Below, piece by piece: positions 14,996 through 31,113 of a stretch of 64,000 nucleotides of DNA. Both the position numbers and the translations under genes were made by a program. This stretch comes from Allorhodopirellula solitaria (lineage in GTDB: Bacteria > Planctomycetota > Planctomycetia > Pirellulales > Pirellulaceae), in the NCBI RefSeq assembly GCF_007859855.1, contig NZ_SJPK01000003.1, positions 565,182 through 629,181 on the forward strand. Direction: 5' to 3'. Numbering within the stretch: the stretch's first letter is position 1; each line of letters starts with the position of its first letter. The notes beneath the pieces were generated by a model. That model did not search any database. It was not told where the DNA came from and was given only the letters and a program-made list of their open reading frames with translations.

Positions 14996-15016
14996 TCAGC
15001 TACCCCGCTAGGACTC
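14996..15016. repeat. attL: 21-bp copy of tRNA-Gln 3' end
   Basis: TCAGCTACCCCGCTAGGACTC is identical to 29412-29432. It is the tRNA 3' end (acceptor and T-arm half) left behind at the far edge of the island. Confidence 0.92.
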
Positions 15017-15238
15017 TCACAGCCATCTGATTCCCTGGGAAATACGCACATCGACGAAACGGCGGTCCCGTGGGCGGTCCCATCGCTGCAGGAAGGCGAC
15101 GAACGAGCCGCCGAACTGCTGCGGGTCTGGCAATGGCTCGATGATACCGCCCGCGATGATCTGCTGAGCGTGGCACGTGGGCTAATGAGCAATCTGGCTA
15201 GCCCGTCCGCTACCTCCACCGGGGCAAAACGATCATGA
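15017..15238 (+). pseudogene. Displaced 3' coding segment of the integrase
   Basis: Reading in the frame set by the attachment core, bases 14996-15235 are open: SATPLGL then SQPSDSLGNTHIDETAVPWA, a helical AAELLRVWQWLDDTARDDL and LSVARGLMSN, ending in TGA at 15236-15238. No start codon belongs to it. Joined across the 21-bp core to the integrase frame at 29432 it would give a 512-residue integrase in the excised circle, against 464 in the integrated form. The TGA overlaps the ATG of the next gene (ATGA). Confidence 0.75.
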
Positions 15239-15624
15239 GCGGTAACAGACCAACACTGTCGAAAATGACACCTGAGCAGCGATGCCGATTTATCGGGGGC
15301 AGGAACGCACGAGCGGCCCGTAGACGATGCCTAGCCGAGCTGCGCCGGGTCGAAGTCGCTCGACGGCTAAAGAGCGTCAACGTGGGCGTGAGAGGCTGGA
15401 AGGCTGAGCTATGCCGAGAACTGGGCATTCACCGCGACACGCTCAACAACGATCTGCGAGAAATCGCGAAGGCGGCCAACGAAGCACGGCAAGCCAAGGT
15501 CGATGCACGGCAGGCACTAGCTAGCGAGTATGCCCGCAAGCTGGAATCGTCGATCAACCCGGACCCGCTCTACCAAGCGATGAGACGACGGGGCACGCCA
15601 CCAACCCAACATTTTGTTCTCTAG
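15235..15624 (+). CDS. Small basic HTH-like protein
   Basis: This 129-residue Arg-rich protein has an N-terminal LSKMTPEQRCRFIGGRNARA and a helix-turn-helix-like stretch KAELCRELGIHRDTLNNDLR (about residues 58-77) followed by a long helix. It is probably DNA-binding, but no family is recognised. Its ATG overlaps the stop of the displaced integrase segment, so in the excised circle it would be translated in tandem with the integrase, which makes a directionality or copy-control role plausible. In the integrated state it has lost that upstream gene and its promoter is unclear. Confidence 0.6.
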   Translation: MSGNRPTLSKMTPEQRCRFIGGRNARAARRRCLAELRRVEVARRLKSVNVGVRGWKAELCRELGIHRDTLNNDLREIAKAANEARQAKVDARQALASEYARKLESSINPDPLYQAMRRRGTPPTQHFVL

Positions 15625-16396: not shown

Positions 16397-19300
16397 CTAT
16401 GAAGCTTTCGTTTTCGGCCCTGGTCCAACCGTAAATCGGCCGTCGTCCAGTTGCCGGATGCTACCAACGGCAACAAGTGTCGCCAGCAAGGATTCGACAT
16501 CTGACTTGTTCGCGCGGGTATAGTAGGCTGCGATGTCCTTCGGATTGGCTGGGCGAGCATGTTGCGTCAACGCGGCGTGAACGGCGACCATTCGTTCGGT
16601 CGGCCCCTTTGGCCAAAGTTGCTTTTTGATTTTGGCCGGGCCGGCTCTCTTCGATTCGGCTGTCCGGCCATCGTCTGCGAAACCTGTCTGATTGGCCCCG
16701 TTGGGGTTTTGGAAATCAGGCCGCAGCCATCGTATGATGCCGCGACTCTCCTCTTCGGCTCGCTCGTAATTCAGATCGACGAGACGCTGCAAAATCTCTT
16801 CGTCGTCCAGATCGTGCGGCCAACCGTAAGCATCGAATACGGCGGCGTCCAGTTCGTCATGCTTCTGACGCAACACCGATACGAGCCCCTGTTCGTAAAT
16901 TGTCTGCTCTTTCCTTGTTAGTTCCTCTCCCAATCGAAGTTTCTCCAGCACATTGTACATGCCGGTCATCGTTAGCGAGGGGTGTAAATCCTGTTGCCGC
17001 TTGCGATGTGCGTCAAGTTGTTCGGCGCGATGGCGGATACGTTGCTTGGTGGCAGCGTTAGTGGTGGGGAAAGGAAAACTGTCAAAGCATGCCGACTTCA
17101 CGTACGTAGGATCGTTGCCGACGCCGAGATGAGCGCCCGTCTGATTGCTAAAGGAGACGTGAGCTCGCGACGAAAGCACCCCCATATGGAACGCGTCGCT
17201 AGACGCTATTACGACCAATTTGCTGTCCGGTAGCGTCCCCCCCTCCAGGAAGGTGAAGTACCGAAACTTCGCCGTCTTAACTGTAACCGCAAATCTCGGA
17301 AGCTCCTTCAGCGCAGCTCGCATTTCGGTATTCTTTCGACCGAACAGCCACCAGTTCTCCCTGCGGTACTTCTCATTGTTTTGATCTCGCTCGGGCTTGA
17401 CGTAGGTGTAAACGTGTTGAAACAGTGAGGGGAATTTCTCACGGACTTCATTCTCCGAAAGCCCATGCAGGTCGATTATCAGTGCGTTACGATCTTTCGC
17501 AGCGATATCTCTCCCATTTTTGTATCCTACGATGACGTCATTCATACGGCTGTCGCTGTTTCGACCGAACGCAGTTGCTTGGTCGTGAGTTAAAACAAAT
17601 CCCATTCCGTGGGGCTTGATTCCCTCGGCCGACAAGCCATTGTTCGCTTTCAAAGATTTCAGCGAACCTATGTCAGCGCCAACAGTTAAATGCGAGGTGA
17701 CCCTGCCGATCCGTACATTCTCGATAGCTTCGTCTGCGTCGGGTCTCGCTTTGCAGGAGAAGAATGCTCGGCCGAGCTGATTGCCCGCTATGCCAACTGT
17801 CATCGCAATTCGAACAGCGGCACACATCGCCGTATCCACCCAAGGGTGATCGGGAACCGCAAAGTGAATCGAGAGCGGATTCTTGGCATCGACGTGGAGA
17901 GAGACGACTCGTCGATTGAACGTTTGTCGCAAGCTGTTTGTGGTGATCAACCCAAAACGGTTGGCTTGACCGTCACGAACTTTCTCTGCAGCGTTGTGCC
18001 ACCAGTACATGACATAGTCGCACGATTCGGGCAGCTCTTTGTATGCTCCACGAATTGTTTTTGTGTAACCATCGCCAAGGGCGTCACGCATTCTCGACGT
18101 GCCAATGAACGGCGGATTGCCGACTATATAATCAGTTTCCGGCCACTCCGCTTTTCTGGGGCGCATGTACCGCAATTCTTGAACTCGCGCCCTTTCGTCG
18201 GGAATCTCCTCGCCCGTAATGGGATTTGGTTTGGTCGTACTCCCGTCCCAACGGGTAACGGGATTGCCATCATCGTCAATAACTGCGTCGATCGCGTCCC
18301 AGGTCAACACTGCGTCCCGGCACTCGATATTCTTGTAGTCTTTTAGAATCGGCTCTGGCGGGGCGACTTCGTCTCGCGTTTTCACATGCCACTGAATGAA
18401 TCCGATCCACAGCACCAATTCCGCCAACGCTGCAGCGCGTGGGTTGATTTCGATTCCGAGAAACTGATGCGGATCGATTGTGATTCCCGGAAGCACGTCC
18501 GCATCGAATGATGTGAGCGCAACAACAACTTCGCCTTCAAGCCGTTTCATCAACTCCATCGCTACGTACAGGAAGTTGCCGCTACCGCAGGCTGGGTCCA
18601 GAACTCGTGTTTCGCATAGCTGTCCGTGGAAGTCTTGAATCAATCGAACCGCTTGTTTGCGTTTGCCCTCTTCGTCCAACTGGATGGCGGCCGCGTAGGT
18701 GGCGTCCCATTGTTCGCGTAACGGTTCAATGATCGTCGGCATCACGAGACGCTCGACGTAGACTCGCGGTGTGTAGTGAGCGCCGAGCTTATGGCGTTCG
18801 ACGGGATCGAGAGCACGTTCAAGCAGCGTGCCGAAAATCGCTGGCTCGACTTCGCGCCAGTCGTGCTCGGCGGCTTCGATGAGCAAATCAAGTTGATCTT
18901 TCGTGACCGGTAGCGCGGTCTTGTCTTTGAAAAACTTACCGTTGAAGTGTCGCACCTTTTCACGTAGGAACTGGGAGAATTTCCCCTCGTCCATCGCCGA
19001 CCAAAGCCCCTCGACCATGGGCGCAAAGTTGTCCAGTTCGAATCGCAGGCTCAGCAGCAGTTCGGTGAAGCCGCCCTTTCGGATCAGATCAACATCCTCG
19101 GCAAACATCGTGAAAAGACATCGCATCAGGAATCCGGCAACAACTTCGGGTTCATGCTCGCCTTCGAGACTCTTTGCCAACTTAGCCAACCGAGTCGCGA
19201 TATCACGGGTGACGTCGGCGGCATGTTTACTCGGGTCGAGCCCATGAGGATCGGTCCACAGTAGTTTCAGCTGCTTGCGTATCGACTCGTCCCGCAAGCG

Positions 19301-19840
19301 GCCAACCGGGATTCGGAATGAACGTGGATCGGGAAACGGAACGTAGTTCTTCCCAGTGCCAGTGAAATCCGCGTAAAGATCGAAGCAATAGCCCACATCC
19401 GCGACAACTAAGAACGGCGGCCATTCGTCAGGAATCGCCTCAGCGTAGCCTTTGGCCTGTTCTCGAGCCTTCCGCATCGCCTTTTCCCAGCCCGGTGTAC
19501 CTCGGGAAGCGGTCCCAGCATGCTTGGCGGCTTGCTTTGTTTTAGTCGCTAATGCCTCGGCCAACTCGGCGGCCTTGCGTTCGCTTCCCTGTTTCGACTC
19601 AAGCACAAAGCATCCGGCCCGGTATAGATCGACACGGCCTTGAGAGAACGTGCCGTCGCCATTATTGAACCGGACCGATTTCTCGAACACGTATCGGTTT
19701 TCTTCCTTGTCCGTGGTGGTCACATCGGGCTGGTCCACATCGAGCAAGTCGCAAAGCTCTTTGAGAAACGACTGCGAGTTTGCCAGTTCCGCGCCACCGG
19801 ACTTTTCCCACCGCAATACAAATTCATCTGGAGTCATCAT
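16397..19840 (-). CDS. MmeI-like (type IIL/IIG) restriction-modification enzyme
   Basis: This 1147-residue single-chain enzyme should both methylate and cut DNA. The N-terminal nuclease domain has the PD-(D/E)XK-like VDLYRAGCFVLESKQG (about residues 68-84). A helical connector follows. The gamma-class adenine methyltransferase core has motif I LDPACGSGNF (about 412-421) and catalytic motif IV NPPF (about 573-576, context YIVGNPPFIGTSRM). The remainder is the target-recognition region (for example RENWWLFGRKNTEMR) and C-terminal helices. Length and order match MmeI-family 'class I SAM-dependent DNA methyltransferase' proteins. Here the catalytic tetrad is NPPF. No separate restriction or specificity gene is present, as expected for this class. 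It is defence cargo of the tRNA-Gln island. Confidence 0.88.
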   Translation of the reverse strand: MMTPDEFVLRWEKSGGAELANSQSFLKELCDLLDVDQPDVTTTDKEENRYVFEKSVRFNNGDGTFSQGRVDLYRAGCFVLESKQGSERKAAELAEALATKTKQAAKHAGTASRGTPGWEKAMRKAREQAKGYAEAIPDEWPPFLVVADVGYCFDLYADFTGTGKNYVPFPDPRSFRIPVGRLRDESIRKQLKLLWTDPHGLDPSKHAADVTRDIATRLAKLAKSLEGEHEPEVVAGFLMRCLFTMFAEDVDLIRKGGFTELLLSLRFELDNFAPMVEGLWSAMDEGKFSQFLREKVRHFNGKFFKDKTALPVTKDQLDLLIEAAEHDWREVEPAIFGTLLERALDPVERHKLGAHYTPRVYVERLVMPTIIEPLREQWDATYAAAIQLDEEGKRKQAVRLIQDFHGQLCETRVLDPACGSGNFLYVAMELMKRLEGEVVVALTSFDADVLPGITIDPHQFLGIEINPRAAALAELVLWIGFIQWHVKTRDEVAPPEPILKDYKNIECRDAVLTWDAIDAVIDDDGNPVTRWDGSTTKPNPITGEEIPDERARVQELRYMRPRKAEWPETDYIVGNPPFIGTSRMRDALGDGYTKTIRGAYKELPESCDYVMYWWHNAAEKVRDGQANRFGLITTNSLRQTFNRRVVSLHVDAKNPLSIHFAVPDHPWVDTAMCAAVRIAMTVGIAGNQLGRAFFSCKARPDADEAIENVRIGRVTSHLTVGADIGSLKSLKANNGLSAEGIKPHGMGFVLTHDQATAFGRNSDSRMNDVIVGYKNGRDIAAKDRNALIIDLHGLSENEVREKFPSLFQHVYTYVKPERDQNNEKYRRENWWLFGRKNTEMRAALKELPRFAVTVKTAKFRYFTFLEGGTLPDSKLVVIASSDAFHMGVLSSRAHVSFSNQTGAHLGVGNDPTYVKSACFDSFPFPTTNAATKQRIRHRAEQLDAHRKRQQDLHPSLTMTGMYNVLEKLRLGEELTRKEQTIYEQGLVSVLRQKHDELDAAVFDAYGWPHDLDDEEILQRLVDLNYERAEEESRGIIRWLRPDFQNPNGANQTGFADDGRTAESKRAGPAKIKKQLWPKGPTERMVAVHAALTQHARPANPKDIAAYYTRANKSDVESLLATLVAVGSIRQLDDGRFTVGPGPKTKAS

Positions 19841-24359: not shown

Positions 24360-24605
24360 ATGTCGGTATCTGCTGAGCGAATCGAGCCATTGTCTGAGGC
24401 TCGACATTTCTTTCACGGTAAGCCACCAGCCGCCATAACGATGAGGCGGTATGTTACCGCTGGCATCCGTGGCGTCGTATTAGAGAGCGTTCTGCATTTA
24501 GGCAAGCGTCATACGAGCCGTGAGGCTGTCGCCCGATTTGAGCAAGCGATTAGCGTCCCAGTCCGTCACCGGACCACCGCCGAATCTAGCGAGGCCACGT
24601 CATGA
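24360..24605 (+). CDS. DUF1580 protein
   Basis: This 81-residue protein matches the planctomycete DUF1580 family: RIEPLSEARHFFHGKPPAAI, then TMRRYVTAGIRGVVLESVLH (the T..RW...GV.G..LE signature) and HTSREAVARFEQAI. It is a small MerR/excisionase-like DNA-binding module, commonly encoded near integrases in these bacteria. ATG 24360 is chosen because GGAG lies at 24348-24351; the frame is open further upstream through the leader hairpin. It overlaps the next gene by 4 bases (ATGA) and opens a five-gene run ending with the integrase. Confidence 0.75.
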   Translation: MSVSAERIEPLSEARHFFHGKPPAAITMRRYVTAGIRGVVLESVLHLGKRHTSREAVARFEQAISVPVRHRTTAESSEATS

Positions 24606-24898
24606 GTAGCCTATTTTTGCAGGGCATCGCCCCGGACGAACTGATTGACGCAATCGCCGCTGCCGTGCTCGACCAGATACGACCGGCGCTCTCGGAGTCA
24701 TCCGCTCCGCTACTAGTCGATCGAGACGAGATGGCACGTCTGGCTAGCATCAGCCCGCCGATGGTCGACAAACTCAGAGCCGCTGGCACGATACCAAGTG
24801 TGCTGGCTGGCCGTCGTCGACTCTACCGGCCCGACGCGGTCATCGAGGCATTGACCGCCGCGACCAGAAACGAAAAGGGGGGTGCGATCAATGGCTAA
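24602..24898 (+). CDS. Excisionase-like helix-turn-helix protein
   Basis: This 98-residue protein has a C-terminal helix-turn-helix of the MerR/excisionase type: DRDEMARLASISPPMVDKLR, then AAGTIPSVLAGRRRLYRPDA (helix, wing with RRR, next helix), about residues 40-85. The N-terminus IAPDELIDAIAAAVLDQI is helical and may dimerise. It could serve as recombination directionality factor or replication regulator for the island. It overlaps the DUF1580 gene upstream and the next gene downstream (ATGGCTAA). Confidence 0.7.
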   Translation: MSSLFLQGIAPDELIDAIAAAVLDQIRPALSESSAPLLVDRDEMARLASISPPMVDKLRAAGTIPSVLAGRRRLYRPDAVIEALTAATRNEKGGAING

Positions 24899-25295
24899 TC
24901 AATCACACCCCCAAAGGTTTCGCGACCTGAATTGTAGCAGGTATCCGGCCGTTACGACAATCGACGGTAAGGTGCATTCAGTAGATGCAAACGGGATAAT
25001 CTCGCCTTCACGTCGACTCGAATCACCGCCAGCTAAGCGAGAGATTGACGACGCAATTCAATGGCTTGCGACAATGAAGCCCGCGAAATCATGCTGGATA
25101 TCCTCGTACGGTGCAAAGCACTCCTGCGAGCGATCGGCAGTTGGATACGTGAGTAACGGCGCGATGATCGTAGCCGTAGATCGAGCAGGATATCGACAAG
25201 AGCACCGCCCGCATGACGGACCGAATACTGGCATCGGCATTTGCGCCAAGACCTACCGGGCAATCGTGGAGCGAGTTACGGAGGTGGAGCTATGA
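24891..25295 (+). CDS. Small protein of unknown function
   Basis: This 134-residue protein starts at ATG 24891, overlapping the preceding stop by 8 bases. It reads SRYPAVTTIDGKVHSVDANG, then DDAIQWLATMKPAKSCWISS, SYGAKHSCERSAVGYVSNGA and a C-terminal THICAKTYRAIVERV-like helix, suggesting a compact alpha/beta domain. No family is recognised. Its position between the excisionase-like gene and the replication gene suggests a replication accessory role. Its stop overlaps the start of the replication gene (ATGA). Confidence 0.6.
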   Translation: MANQSHPQRFRDLNCSRYPAVTTIDGKVHSVDANGIISPSRRLESPPAKREIDDAIQWLATMKPAKSCWISSYGAKHSCERSAVGYVSNGAMIVAVDRAGYRQEHRPHDGPNTGIGICAKTYRAIVERVTEVEL

Positions 25296-27697
25296 GCAGT
25301 GCAACCACCGATGCACCGGAGCCGGTCTCACTGGCACCGCCCGCCGCTACGAAGCCGGTCGAGTCGCACGACATGGAGCGGTTTCTGTCGCTCCTGCATC
25401 CCGATGGATGCTTTGAAATTCGCATTCCCGACTGCCCGGCCAAAAAGGGCAGTACGTTCCGAAAAACGGCAAGCGGGTACTTCGTCAGTCGTCACGATGC
25501 GAGAAAACATATTGAGTTTTTCGCAAACCGCGAACCGGCTGGAATCTATTGCACAATGAATCCAGTTGATGGTTCGCTGCTGGGTCGATCGTGCAACGCG
25601 ATTACGCATGACGCCAAGAGCACTACCACCGATGCCGACATCGTAGAGCGTCGATGGATTCTGGTCGACATTGACCCGAAACGACCGACCGGGACGTCTG
25701 CGAGCGCGGACGAAAACAAGGCGGCAATCATGGCAGCCGCAGGCATACGACACTGGCTTGCTGGACGTGGTTGGCCCGAGCCGCTGCGGTGCATGTCTGG
25801 CAATGGTGCGTATTTGATTTATCGTGTTTCGCTACCCAACGATAAGCAAGCCAAGGAGCTGGCTGCATCGTTCCTAAAGGTCATTGGCGATAGGTTCAAC
25901 AGTGAACGAGTCGACATTGATCATAGCGTCTACAACGCTGGCCGAATCCTCAAGGTTTGCGGCACTGTCGCCCGCAAAGGATCGGACCTGCGAGGCGTCG
26001 ACGGTATTGAGGATCGACCGCACCGGCGATCGTTCTTTATCGACACCGGCAAGCCGATCGAGGTTGGAGATCGTTCGCTAATCGAGTCGCTGGTAGCGGA
26101 ATTTGCCGAGCGGAAAGACGATGCACCGGAGACGGTAAAGCCAACGGCAAGCCAAGTTGCTTCGACGTCGCCACGTTCTGCCATCGACCGATGCCGCAAA
26201 TATCTAGCGTCGATGCAACCGGCAATCGAAGGGCAAAACGGATCGGCTAAGACGTTGGAGGCGGGGGCGGTTGTGGAGCGGTTTGGCTTGTCGCTCGATG
26301 ATGGCCTGCCGCTGATGCACAGATACAACGCCCGATGCGTTCCCCCGTGGGATGAGCGAGATTTGGAGCGGAAATTGACGGAGGGAATGCGGGTAGCAAG
26401 GGAGGCCGGCGAGACTGAGCGGATGCTGTGGGATGATCGGCAGCTAGCCAAATCACCACCGCTCGCCGTGACGGCATCGGCACCCGAGTACCGCGCCATT
26501 GCACCGGGGGAGCGGGTTCACGCTGGAGACCGGGGCAATGTCGGCACGGTGGAGTCGGATGACGGCGATACCTGTTCTGTTTTGTTCGTGTCCAAAGAAG
26601 GAAACGAAAAACGGAAATCACTCCCCAAGTCAGAGCTGCGGGCGATGGACGGTACGCCGCTGGCTTCGACGGACGAGCTAGCCACCGATGCCGACCTGAT
26701 CGTGTCCGCCGCTGATCTGATTGCCGAGTATCCCGCACTGCGGGAGCCGATCATTCAGGGCGTTTGCCGACGCGGCGAAACGGTCAATATCATTGGAGCG
26801 CCGAAGCTAGGTAAGTCGTGGTTTATCCACTCGCTCTTGTTGTCGGTTGCTTCCGGCCGCCCGTGGCTTGGACGGTTCGAGACTAAGCAGGGGCCGGTCC
26901 TGCTTATCGACAACGAGCTGCACCGGGAGACGCTATCGGAGCGGCTGTTGATGGTGGCTACCACGATGGGAGTTCCCGATTCAGTGGTGAGAGACAACGT
27001 CGACGTGCTTTCATTGCGGGGCAAGCTGACGGACGTGAACGGACTTCGTGACTTGCTATCGAAGCGTAAGGAGCGTGGCTACCACATTGCCGCCCTGGAC
27101 GCCTTCTACCGGGCTCTGCCTTCTGACGTGAACGAAAACGACAACGCCCAGATGGCGGGAGTTTACAACGCGATTGACGCTATCGCCGATTCGCTGGGTT
27201 GCGGTTTCGTCCTGAATCACCATTCGAGCAAGGGCGACCAATCGAGCAAGTCAGTTACCGACGTCGGCAGCGGAGCCGGTTCAATTAGCCGCGCTGCCGA
27301 TACTCACATCATCCTGCGACCGCACCGCGAGGACGGGCACGCGGTGATGGATGGGGTATGCCGATCGTTTCGACCGTTTGACCCGATGAGCCTGCACTTT
27401 GACTTCCCGATGTTTCGGGCAAGCGATCTGGAGCCGGAGGTTCGATTGCCCGAGCCGAAGCAAGCCAGCCACCAGCGATCCCGTGACCGTGAGACCGATT
27501 CGCAAGTGCTCGAAATGCTGAGGGGCTGCGACGGCGCGTTTCCGAAGTCGATACGTGCCGATCTAGGTTTCGGAACAGAACGGATTGAACGCGCCCTCAA
27601 GCGATTGTACGACGCAAAAAAAATCTATTTCGAGGAAAAGAAATCCCCTGGAAACGGAAAACTTGGAAAATTCTGGTTCGCGACACCGCCGGAATAA
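25292..27697 (+). CDS. Primase/RepA-like helicase replication protein
   Basis: This 801-residue protein starts at ATG 25292 with GGAG upstream and a 4-base overlap with the previous gene. The N-terminal half resembles archaeo-eukaryotic primase-type domains of mobile elements: RRWILVDIDPKRPTG, then RCMSGNGAYLIYRVSLPND and NAGRILKVCGTVARKGSD. The C-terminal half is a RecA-like hexameric helicase of the RepA/AAA_25 type with Walker A GAPKLGKSW (about residues 501-509), Walker B VLLIDNELH and the sensor VLNHHSSKG (about 642). It is followed by a winged-helix-like tail. Such proteins drive autonomous replication of plasmids and integrative elements, so the excised island probably replicates. A repeat-rich candidate origin follows directly. 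Confidence 0.85.
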   Translation: MSSATTDAPEPVSLAPPAATKPVESHDMERFLSLLHPDGCFEIRIPDCPAKKGSTFRKTASGYFVSRHDARKHIEFFANREPAGIYCTMNPVDGSLLGRSCNAITHDAKSTTTDADIVERRWILVDIDPKRPTGTSASADENKAAIMAAAGIRHWLAGRGWPEPLRCMSGNGAYLIYRVSLPNDKQAKELAASFLKVIGDRFNSERVDIDHSVYNAGRILKVCGTVARKGSDLRGVDGIEDRPHRRSFFIDTGKPIEVGDRSLIESLVAEFAERKDDAPETVKPTASQVASTSPRSAIDRCRKYLASMQPAIEGQNGSAKTLEAGAVVERFGLSLDDGLPLMHRYNARCVPPWDERDLERKLTEGMRVAREAGETERMLWDDRQLAKSPPLAVTASAPEYRAIAPGERVHAGDRGNVGTVESDDGDTCSVLFVSKEGNEKRKSLPKSELRAMDGTPLASTDELATDADLIVSAADLIAEYPALREPIIQGVCRRGETVNIIGAPKLGKSWFIHSLLLSVASGRPWLGRFETKQGPVLLIDNELHRETLSERLLMVATTMGVPDSVVRDNVDVLSLRGKLTDVNGLRDLLSKRKERGYHIAALDAFYRALPSDVNENDNAQMAGVYNAIDAIADSLGCGFVLNHHSSKGDQSSKSVTDVGSGAGSISRAADTHIILRPHREDGHAVMDGVCRSFRPFDPMSLHFDFPMFRASDLEPEVRLPEPKQASHQRSRDRETDSQVLEMLRGCDGAFPKSIRADLGFGTERIERALKRLYDAKKIYFEEKKSPGNGKLGKFWFATPPE

Positions 27698-28115: not shown

Positions 28116-29510
28116 GTGGCAAGTTTACGCAAAGAGAACGACCGGGGCCGAGTTGGTTGGCGGTTGCGGTTTTACATCGACCGAAAACGCAAGTCACTTT
28201 GGCTGAGCGATCCAAGCAAACGACGGGCGGAGTCTGTCATGCGGCACGTCGATGAGTTGGTGAGGGCGAGAGCAGCGGGCGGTGGCGGTGTCGATCCTGC
28301 TACGGTTCGGTGGGTTGCTGATCTAGACGGTAAGCTGTTTGATTCTCTGGCACGCATCGGTTTGGTCGATGCCCGCCGCGATCGTTCCACTGGCGACGAG
28401 GGGCGGCTACTGGGGCCGTTCTGCGATGCCTACACCGCTTCACGTACCGACGTGGCACAATCTACGCGAGACAATTACGGGCACGCTCGACGGCTGCTTG
28501 TGGAGCGATTTGGAGAGCGTCACCTGATTGCAGCAATCACGGCGGGTGATGCTGAGCGTTGGCGTCGATGGCTGCTTGCACGTCCGGTGGCGTGGGATGA
28601 GCAGGGCAACGTGACTAAGACGATGGCGGTTGCGACCGTGAGCAAGCACGTTAAGCGGGCCAAAACGATATTCGACGAGGCTGTGCGGGACCGGTTGCTA
28701 GCGGAGAACCCATTCAAGGACTTGAAGACGGGATCGGAGGCAAACCGCGACCGCGACCACTATATTGACCGAACCACGGCAGCATCGGTTCTAAGTGGCT
28801 GCCCCGATGTTCAGTGGCGATTGATCTTCGCTCTTGCTCGTTTCGGAGGCTTGCGTCGATGCGAGTTGCTGGTGCTCGCATGGGGTGACGTTCAGTGGGA
28901 CGGCGGCAAACTGCGCATCGACTCCCCTAAGACGGGCGTTCGGTTCTGTCCGATCTTCCCCGAGGTGATGCCGCTACTTCGCGAAGCGTTCGACGCCGCC
29001 CCCGAGGGCACAACCCGAATCATCCATCGGTATCACCGCACCGCGAACTTGGGCACACAGATGAACAGGATCATTGAGCAGGCGGGTTTGCCGATCTGGG
29101 AAAAGACTTTTCAGAATCTGCGAGCAACTCGGCGAACCGAATTGCAAGAGAAATTCCAGGATCACGTTGTAAATGCGTGGCTAGGGCATAGTTCAGCGAC
29201 CGCGGCCAAGCACTACCTTCAAGTGACGGATGAGCACTTCGCGTCTGGATTGAGCACCGAAACGGGCGAGCCAATGAGCACCGCCGATTTTGGCGGTCCC
29301 ACTGGCGGTCCCATTCCTGCTGATATGGGCCACTACAGAGAAAACCCGAAAACGAAAAAAACCCGTAAAACACTTGGTTCTACGGGGTCTGTGTTAGTGC
29401 ATAACGGTGGCTCAGCTACCCCGCTAGGACTCGAACCTAGAATGGCTGGACCAAAACCAGCTGTGTTGCCAATTACACCACGGGGTAGTGGTGGCGGGAG
29501 ATTGCGGTGA
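28116..29510 (+). CDS. Tyrosine-type site-specific integrase (integrated form)
   Basis: This 464-residue integrase starts at GTG 28116 with AGGAG 8 bases upstream. It has an N-terminal arm-binding part, a SAM-like core-binding domain (TRDNYGHARRLLVERFGERH) and a catalytic domain: box I FGGLRRCELLVLAWGDV (about 241-257), a beta-hairpin Lys in DSPKTGVRF, box II ATRRTELQEKF (Arg-Arg rather than the usual His-x-x-Arg), GHSSATAAKHY (about 357-367) with the nucleophile Tyr. Residues 433-464 are encoded by the attachment core and the antisense of tRNA-Gln, so the true C-terminus is replaced on integration. In the circle the frame instead continues through 15017-15238. Confidence 0.92.
   Translation: MASLRKENDRGRVGWRLRFYIDRKRKSLWLSDPSKRRAESVMRHVDELVRARAAGGGGVDPATVRWVADLDGKLFDSLARIGLVDARRDRSTGDEGRLLGPFCDAYTASRTDVAQSTRDNYGHARRLLVERFGERHLIAAITAGDAERWRRWLLARPVAWDEQGNVTKTMAVATVSKHVKRAKTIFDEAVRDRLLAENPFKDLKTGSEANRDRDHYIDRTTAASVLSGCPDVQWRLIFALARFGGLRRCELLVLAWGDVQWDGGKLRIDSPKTGVRFCPIFPEVMPLLREAFDAAPEGTTRIIHRYHRTANLGTQMNRIIEQAGLPIWEKTFQNLRATRRTELQEKFQDHVVNAWLGHSSATAAKHYLQVTDEHFASGLSTETGEPMSTADFGGPTGGPIPADMGHYRENPKTKKTRKTLGSTGSVLVHNGGSATPLGLEPRMAGPKPAVLPITPRGSGGGRLR
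29352..29390 (-). terminator. Island-borne terminator below tRNA-Gln
   Basis: On the minus strand ACCCCGTA ... TACGGGT forms a stem (one bulged C) followed by T7. It lies 26 bases below the tRNA 3' end and inside the integrase coding sequence. It replaces the native tRNA terminator now 14.4 kb away and should stop tRNA transcription from running antisense through the integrase. Confidence 0.65.
29412..29432. repeat. attR: 21-bp core in tRNA-Gln 3' end
   Basis: Identical to 14996-15016. It covers the acceptor and T-arm 3' half of the intact tRNA, so insertion preserves tRNA function. The next base on each side differs between the two copies. Confidence 0.92.
29416..29487 (-). tRNA. tRNA-Gln (anticodon UUG)
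   Basis: Read on the minus strand: acceptor TACCCCG/CGGGGTA, a D-arm GTGT/ACAC, anticodon stem GCTGG/CCAGC with loop TTTTGGT (anticodon TTG, reads CAA), T-arm CTAGG/CCTAG with loop TTCGAGT, and a discriminator G. CCA is not encoded. The gene is the integration target of the 14.4-kb island and overlaps the integrase 3' end in antisense. Confidence 0.95.
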
Positions 29511-29634: not shown

Positions 29635-31113
29635 TTAGCTCATCAAGGCCGTCACGGCTTGGCCTTTAACCAGCTCGCGGGGTTGGTTGAGGTGGTTGTA
29701 GACCATCGTTTCGGGGGAGATTCCGAAGCTGTGGTAGATCGTGGCGAGCAGATCGGCGGGGTGGACCGGGTTCTCGATCGGCGCTGACGAGGTCTCATCG
29801 CTCTTGCCGTAGACCAATCCACGTTGCATCCCCGCGCCGGCCATGATCGCGGTGTAGCAGTAGGGCCAGTGGTCGCGTCCGTCATCGGAATTGTTGTTGC
29901 CGCTCGTGCTGACCCCACGCTGGGGACTGCGGCCGAACTCGCCGACGGCCACGACGAGTGTCTCATCGAGGATCCCACGTTGGTCAAGATCCTCGATCAA
30001 GGTCGTCAATCCAGCGTCGAGCATGGGGGCAGACTGCGTTTTCATGCGTTTACTGAGGTCTTTGTGGTGGTCCCAGGAATGATTGTCGCTGTTGGCGACC
30101 TTGGGCCAGATGACTTCCACTACCCGCGTGCCGGCTTCGACCAGTCGCCGAGCCAACAGGCAGCTTTGACCGAAGGTATTGCGCCCATAGGCATCCCGCA
30201 GTACATCCTCTTCATCGCTGAGTTTGAAAGCGTCTCGGGCGCGACCGGAGATGATCAGCGAGAGGGCGCGATCGTAGTATTGGTCCAGTTGGAAGTTTTC
30301 GACAGCGTGATTGATCGCTGGCATCTGCTCGTTGAGCAACTGCCGCAGATTCGCACGCCGCTGCAAACGAATATCAAACACCTCGTCTCGCAGACTCAGA
30401 TCGTCTGTGCGAATCCGCTCCATTTTATCCATCGACATGTCATCGCCGCTGGGGTAGAGCGTGTAGGGATCAAACGCTTTACCGAGGAATCCCGCTGTGC
30501 CTCCTTTTCCGATGACGTTGGATTCCTGCAACGGCCGGGGCAACATCACGAACGGCAGCATTGGTTCATCGATGGGCCGCATCTTGACGATATTGCTGCC
30601 GAAGTTGGGGAAGTCCTTGGGCGATGGTGGCTCGAGTTGCCCCGATGGACTGACCTTGTCGGTCGTGTACCCGGTCATCATTTGGTAGATCGCCGCGGTA
30701 TGGTTGAATAAACCGTTGGGCGTGTAGGACATCGACCGAATGGTCGTGAAGCGATCATTGATCTGGCTGAGTCGGGGCAGATTCTCAGTGAACTTGACAC
30801 CCGGGATCTTCGTGCTGATGGGCGCGAACTGACTGCGCACGTTATCGGGCACGTTCTCTTTCGGGTCCCAGAGATCGAGTTGGCTGGGACCGCCTTGCAG
30901 GTACACCATGATAATCGACTTGGCCTTGTTCCAGCCGGGGCCGCCCCCATGCTCGCCAGCCTTGGATTCGCCTTGAGCCGACTGCAACTGCAGCAACTGG
31001 GGCAGCGAAAGTCCGAGCATCCCGGCGCCACCGACGCGCAGAAAACTTCGTCGCGTGGATCCGAGTTGGGAATCACAAAGGTCTTTGGCGGCATGCCCTT
31101 TGAATGACAACAT
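29635..31113 (-). CDS. DUF1501 protein, Tat-exported
   Basis: This 492-residue planctomycete protein has a twin-arginine signal [16 protein letters not shown] (Arg21-Arg22). The mature domain is DUF1501, a sulfatase/alkaline phosphatase-like fold: [20 protein letters not shown], then [39 protein letters not shown] and [16 protein letters not shown]. These are predicted metalloenzymes often found beside DUF1549/DUF1553 cytochrome proteins and thought to work with them. That partner is the next gene on the same strand, upstream at 31390-36675. Substrate unknown; exported to the periplasm. It is probably second in a two-gene operon. Confidence 0.93.

Follow-up and report, generated by a model that had tools for sequence, protein, structure and literature searches.

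A planctomycete tRNA-Gln island with an integrase gene that very probably spans its own attP and trades a C-terminal hairpin for an antisense-tRNA tail on integration

The window, by which we mean the whole stretch of 64,000 nucleotides from Allorhodopirellula solitaria that was analysed and to which all positions refer, contains a 14.4-kb island integrated at a tRNA-Gln (ttg) gene on the minus strand (29415–29487) and bounded by two plus-strand copies of an exact 21-bp repeat, TCAGCTACCCCGCTAGGACTC, one at the tRNA end (29412–29432) and one at the far island end (14996–15016), with no extension of the identity on either side. The integrase ORF lies at the tRNA end (28116–29510, plus strand, GTG start) and in the integrated state encodes 464 residues, referred to below as the short form; a Pfam Phage_integrase match covers residues 229–374 (E 7e-9), and its score of 36.1 bits against a cut-off of 27.1 establishes catalytic similarity. 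Residues R247, K272, R336 and Y367, which we take to be the conserved tyrosine recombinase residues, are invariant in all 14 rows of the integrase alignment A1. The box II position of tyrosine recombinases is usually His; at this position, residue 334 of the window integrase, no fewer than 90% of the 14 sequences in the alignment have Asn.

A preliminary description of this DNA had placed the repeat in frame inside the integrase, and this was borne out: both copies were recovered, and the core enters the ORF in frame at codon 433, after the catalytic domain, the Pfam match to which stops at residue 374. The same description derived codons 433–464 from the core and the antisense tRNA, which holds for the core itself (codons 433–439) and for the antisense-tRNA codons that follow it, but not for the last few, which lie beyond the tRNA gene (short-form C-terminus from antisense tRNA and flank, stop included, 29433–29510, plus strand).

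Behind the far core, positions 15017–15238 of the plus strand (73 codons and a TGA) are open in the frame that the core imposes, as had been claimed, and joining 28116–29432 to 15017–15238 yields 512 codons with one terminal stop, so that this segment would be the integrase C-terminus in the excised circle. Its TGA (15236–15238) does overlap the ATG (15235–15237) of the next gene, an ORF of 129 aa (15235–15624, plus strand). Within the segment, 15098–15199 (plus strand) encodes a predicted two-helix hairpin (residues 35–47 and 50–68, counted from 14996), and the hairpin codons have no in-frame start upstream of them in the window. A second frame past the far core is open for 49 codons, which makes the open join of the window, taken alone, weak evidence; that the in-frame join exceeds chance follows instead from the comparison of relatives, the codon pattern and the natural unsplit copies described below.

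The core is flanked on both sides by pairs of direct repeats of the 9-mer GGCGGTCCC with a 12-bp step, one pair at 29292–29312 (120 and 108 bp before the core) and the other at 15061–15081 (45 and 57 bp after it), both on the plus strand, where the 9-mer is found four times in the window, as these two pairs; a single inverted copy of GGCGGTCCC lies at 30886. The pairs were recovered by a script search, a standard repeat search of the two regions having reported no repeats. Of 34 islands subjected to a strict test, 23 have repeat pairs with a 12-bp step on each side of the core and 11 do not; none of 3400 single-base shuffles has them. Lambda-like integrases have arm-type sites placed around a core, and to judge from their arrangement the pairs seen here look like such arm-type integrase sites.

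On its minus strand (16397–19840) the island also has a long gene for an MmeI-like restriction-modification protein (MmeI_Mtase, E 1.6e-35), likely to be defence cargo. Upstream of the integrase, 24602–27697 encodes an HTH_17-like protein, an ORF of 137 aa and an AAA_25-domain protein of 818 aa, the last of which was matched in 2 of 20 fetched loci. The HTH_17-like protein (98 aa, 24602–24898, plus strand; Pfam HTH_17, E 1.4e-4, 22.5 bits, below the cut-off of 27) gave tblastn matches in 13 of these 20 loci and would be a natural candidate partner in excision. A remnant of a close relative is present in the same genome (L002, 1432–2221; G000:C4 near 600904–601251): its integrase end is 84% identical up to about the core, a piece resembling the 818-aa protein can be made out by eye, and no tRNA was found at the remnant. 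Of plasmid and phage records, 1 and 12 respectively match the integrase, none of them over 80% of its length.

The integrase matched 162 of 197 relatives at E ≤ 0.001, and an 80-residue query made of core plus tail matched 128 of the 197 at a loose E ≤ 10, mostly noise. Of the 26 tail matches listed at E ≤ 0.001, the window's own row counted, 13 share contig and strand with a related integrase from the integrase list and precede it by 4 to 18 kb. A first sample comprised 20 regions, chosen partly by tail similarity, of which 16 were usable in addition to the window (L088, L089, L090 and L092 gave no usable pair of integrase and core and stand outside the count); where several repeats were present (L076, L078, L080, L081, L086, L091) the one at the tRNA was chosen, and for L083, in which no tRNA was detected, a repeat of 15 bp was assigned manually. 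Every one of the 17 has its core inside the integrase ORF and an in-frame join, the imposed frame staying open for 50–107 codons beyond the core, while the two other frames reach at least 40 codons in 4/17 and 2/17.

Because these islands had been picked partly by tail similarity, a second sample of 40 regions was taken by integrase similarity alone, 16 of the 40 being extended upstream. An overlap between integrase ORF and antisense tRNA exists in 32/40, a tRNA-type core of at least 15 bp was found in 23/40 and in 22 of these 23 it lies inside the integrase ORF; in the remaining 17 regions no such core was detected, and L103, L108 and L111, with repeats of 13–14 bp, were left out of the count, even if L108 and L111 look by eye like further split cases. 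At least 40 codons are open in the imposed frame in 18/22 (7 and 3 in the other frames), and at least 25 codons in 20/22 (10 and 11 in the other frames). A profile built from the first 17 islands only detects the tail at E < 0.01 in the imposed frame of 10/22 and in the other frames of 0/22; a leave-one-out profile, trained on a set with some close pairs (L128 and L132, for example), does so in 16/22 and 1/22 respectively. The exceptions are L130, where the core is positioned after the integrase stop, L098, L109, L117 and L123, where the joins are open for 21–33 codons only, and L097 and L104, where the join is open without a significant tail motif. L109 (G113:C1) is a counter-example in its own right, with repeats of 27 and 16 bp at a tRNA-Arg and a join open for just 23 codons.

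A third set of 80 loci from named organisms, with 82 integrases and flanks of up to 10 kb yielded a core in 10/82, inside the ORF in 9/10 and with at least 40 codons open in 9/10 (1 and 2 in the other frames), five of these ten cases matching, as judged by tail and core, islands counted before (L137, L138, L145, L160, L190). A second tail model, searched against the phylum, matched 66 of 294 genomes at E ≤ 0.001, a number that is not a tally of split integrases, as many of the matches are partial and only one (L299) of 10 loci inspected with about 1.5 kb of flank has an integrase piece. The target tRNA changes between islands and the split and the hairpin persist; an integrase gene running through its own attP is a recurrent feature of Planctomycetota islands. 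Remnant or second integrases lie directly before the far core in L137, L160, L077 and L091, as if islands were stacked in tandem at one tRNA.

The conserved part of the tail reads roughly ELLxxWxxLDxxxRxxLLxVARGL in one group of islands and roughly DLAxxVxAWPxLxxxxRAxIL in another. An AlphaFold model built with 17 tail sequences predicts helices at 35–47 and 50–68, in blocks of mean pLDDT 96, 97 and 90. Hairpin codons of the first group differ in proportions of 0.545, 0.382 and 0.636 at codon positions 1, 2 and 3, as compared with 0.716, 0.763 and 0.705 in unaligned codons used as a control, and conserved Leu and Arg columns are written with up to five different codons; this codon-position pattern is one of selection at the protein level, and the stretch is thus kept as protein. 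Position 3 is also the most different in the codons of the core and of the arm pairs (0.558 and 0.578), and the one close pair tested, L128/L132, gave a dN of 0.20 and a dS of 0.45. Tail and integrase distances are correlated (n = 30, r = 0.52; p = 0.0002 with 5000 permutations) despite the two lying at opposite ends of the island. Identification of the tail as a known domain was ruled out, since neither the window tail nor two further end pieces match anything in Pfam or NCBIfam and a PDB search with the hairpin model returned nothing at E ≤ 10.

Integrases that carry the tail without any split were found among the viral contigs of IMG/VR, from which 70 loci were returned, 67 with a primary integrase as assigned by script. 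A match to the tail model (E < 0.01) lies inside the integrase ORF in 9 of these 67 (L215, L216, L222, L231, L233, L234, L236, L242 and L247), as against 0 of 80 genome loci; L215 duplicates L216, L233 duplicates L234, and L247 ends at a contig edge. At least 115 residues follow the presumed catalytic Tyr in 11/67 IMG/VR integrases and in 1/80 genome loci. Among the rows listed for the nine long forms, which cover all but L215, there is no tRNA overlap. In L236, 21 bp located 54 codons before its stop match a planctomycete tRNA-Val at the antisense 3' end, and L222, L233 and L242 have 13-bp tRNA matches 59–68 codons before theirs, modest when taken alone since tRNA ends are alike, while L215 and L231 have no tRNA-end match of at least 11 bp. 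The same repeat pair flanks the core on both sides in L242, and no pair is present in L236. The predicted structure of the long form L222, the best PDB matches of which are the Tn1549 and lambda integrases, is mostly well ordered to about residue 367, has pLDDT below 50 over 372–455 and ends in helices at 463–472 and 477–492 (block means 73 to 87). In L137 (Roseimaritima sediminicola) and L160, both tandem-island junctions, the frame of a partial integrase stays uninterrupted across the core and on into the tail of the next island; the tails of both are part of the model, so that their E-values by themselves prove nothing. G049:C3, considered as a further natural fusion, was dropped, its neighbouring integrase being in another frame.

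Given the anatomy shared by relatives and these single-frame tailed integrases, the proposal of the preliminary description that integration swaps the integrase C-terminus stands. That description had itself named two findings that would speak against it. One, the lack of any homologue with the 73-residue segment fused to its C-terminus, is answered by the IMG/VR integrases carrying such a tail; the other, homologues that end before the core, is encountered in part among distant relatives, 39/67 IMG/VR integrases stopping less than 50 residues past the presumed catalytic Tyr (e.g., L217–L221 and L252–L260). The integrases that stop soon after the Tyr lack the split arrangement, which counts against the reading.

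The overlap with the 129-aa ORF had been read as a switch in which the circle couples translation of the integrase to a downstream, HTH-like regulator and integration uncouples it. The window does share its ATGA overlap with one other island among 17 (L085, with an 83-aa ORF), and in 5/17 islands, the window counted, the tail end is overlapped by the start (ATG or GTG) of an ORF of at least 60 aa; the downstream ORFs shown are, however, unlike one another, and the 129-aa gene has just two clear homologues among 197 genomes, L054 and L055, neither with a nearby tail match better than E 0.1. The HTH-like label was not borne out either, the best Pfam matches of the 129-aa ORF being at E 0.13 or worse, below the cut-offs. 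Beyond this island the coupling finds no support; as a general feature it was rejected, and we regard such a switch as very unlikely. It is highly improbable that the far segment is instead a small gene of its own, expressed when integrated and agreeing in frame with the integrase by accident: an ATG, GTG or TTG lies in frame before segment codon 35 in 29/33 islands (upstream flank counted; ATG in 13/33), but the window, L087, L098 and L121 have none, start positions differ between islands, the frame matches that of the integrase through different cores, and unsplit copies exist.

A tail that destabilises the long form as a degradation tag would recall the integration-dependent immunity of mycobacteriophages, and the geometry is that of the BPs repressor (PMC4557955), in which, according to the passages cited (PMC4557955, PMC9934374), attP likewise lies in a coding gene and integration shortens the protein and thereby changes the state. 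In BPs, however, the gene is a repressor and the lost end an ssrA-like tag, whereas the island gene is an integrase, none of 33 reconstructed long-form ends finishes in two alanines, no ssrA-like tag being seen, and the conserved part is an internal hairpin; we hold this reading to be scarcely probable. The probability of a chance open frame at the island end is negligible and we reject it: open frames are common in this DNA, that of 49 codons after the far core of the window being an example, but the control with other frames, the independent model, the codon pattern and the unsplit copies all stand against it. There could also be passive read-through, attP being placed in the gene as a compact module, its frame kept open and the C-terminus exchanged without functional effect. 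The high variability of linker and core, the joins that are short or lack the motif and the existence of integrases without any such tail would fit; against it, synonymous codons of the hairpin vary but its second codon positions and conserved residues are retained, and the hairpin recurs in two variants, so that we think this explanation unlikely.

Integrases encoded across attP have already been allowed for by the authors of Islander, who, in the passages cited, name Mx8 and SSV (PMC4383910). The comparison with phages that have attP in a repressor gene, drawn in the preliminary description, was fair but overlooked a closer precedent, the Myxococcus phage Mx8 (Tojo et al. 1996, as cited in PMC4383910), which as described there also has a bacterial tyrosine integrase across attP and differs from the planctomycete islands in being a single phage and one bacterial case. 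The island resembles Mx8 in its way of working, with a core in frame in the integrase gene and after the catalytic domain, and in its record Mx8 Int passes through a TGLEP-like stretch ahead of the final ~110 residues and has a repeat pair of its own with an 11-bp step. The island does not belong to an Mx8-like family with a homologous C-terminal part: Mx8 Int falls below the inclusion threshold of the tail models (best E 0.014, in a two-sequence search, at 3.0 bits), and the similarity between the two integrases is weak (blastp E 5e-5 at best, along 88 residues).

Archaeal suicidal (SSV-type) integrases share with the island an attP within the integrase gene, tRNA targets, a gene split by integration and a translated att site, and as characterised in the passages cited (PMC8371274) their split parts an N-terminal piece from a catalytic-domain piece, both described as inactive; in the island, by contrast, the core follows the catalytic domain, which stays joined to the N-terminal part. 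Self-disrupting recombinases are said in the same passages to occur exclusively in archaea (PMC8371274), and the planctomycete family together with Mx8 speaks against this. A further likeness is offered by orf26 of the haloarchaeal pleolipovirus SNJ2, which in the accounts cited (PMC7911831, PMC13107129) is a CDS across attP, complete only in the circle, between the integrase and the next gene; unlike the tail it is a separate CDS after the integrase and is required for SNJ2 replication. In searches of an open-access library, no listed paper dealt with a split integrase of this kind from Planctomycetota; as evidence of absence this is weak. As attP within an integrase gene is already known from Mx8 and archaea, what is new here is its recurrence in Planctomycetota and the conserved C-terminal module.

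Taken together, it is very probable that this is a tRNA-Gln island whose integrase gene lies across its own attP and in which integration trades the hairpin for an antisense-tRNA tail. In the circle, the gene would run from the catalytic domain through paired repeats, core and paired repeats again to the two-helix hairpin (long form, 512 aa), the attP DNA being read as a disordered or flexible linker that tethers the hairpin; as the repeats step by 12 bp, or four codons, core and repeats could change with the target and the gene stay open. Integration at the tRNA 3' end would strand the hairpin codons at the far island end and give the integrase its short antisense-tRNA tail (short form, 464 aa) while leaving the catalytic domain whole, and, all presumed catalytic residues lying ahead of the core, we infer that both forms are made and catalytic. 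The exchange of the C-terminus may then alter recombination activity or direction. The hairpin would do its work in the circle, where it would most likely favour integration; once it is lost, the short form, possibly together with the HTH_17-like protein, would be biased to excision, or the element would be held in place. A role in direction would be the simplest use of a part present in the circle only, and we give such a role, in integration as against excision, somewhat less than an even chance.

About equally probable, in our view, is a wider reading, in which self-splitting integrases form a class that extends across the phylum Planctomycetota and arose in bacteria apart from the archaeal suicidal integrases; integration would itself act as a directionality switch, the enzyme passing from an integrating state to an excising or idle state. 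The split arrangement aids the mapping of island ends, and it would account both for integrases that end in antisense-tRNA peptides and for small orphan frames at island ends. It also poses a testable question, namely whether the enzyme encoded in the chromosome differs from that encoded in the circle and thereby sets the direction of recombination.
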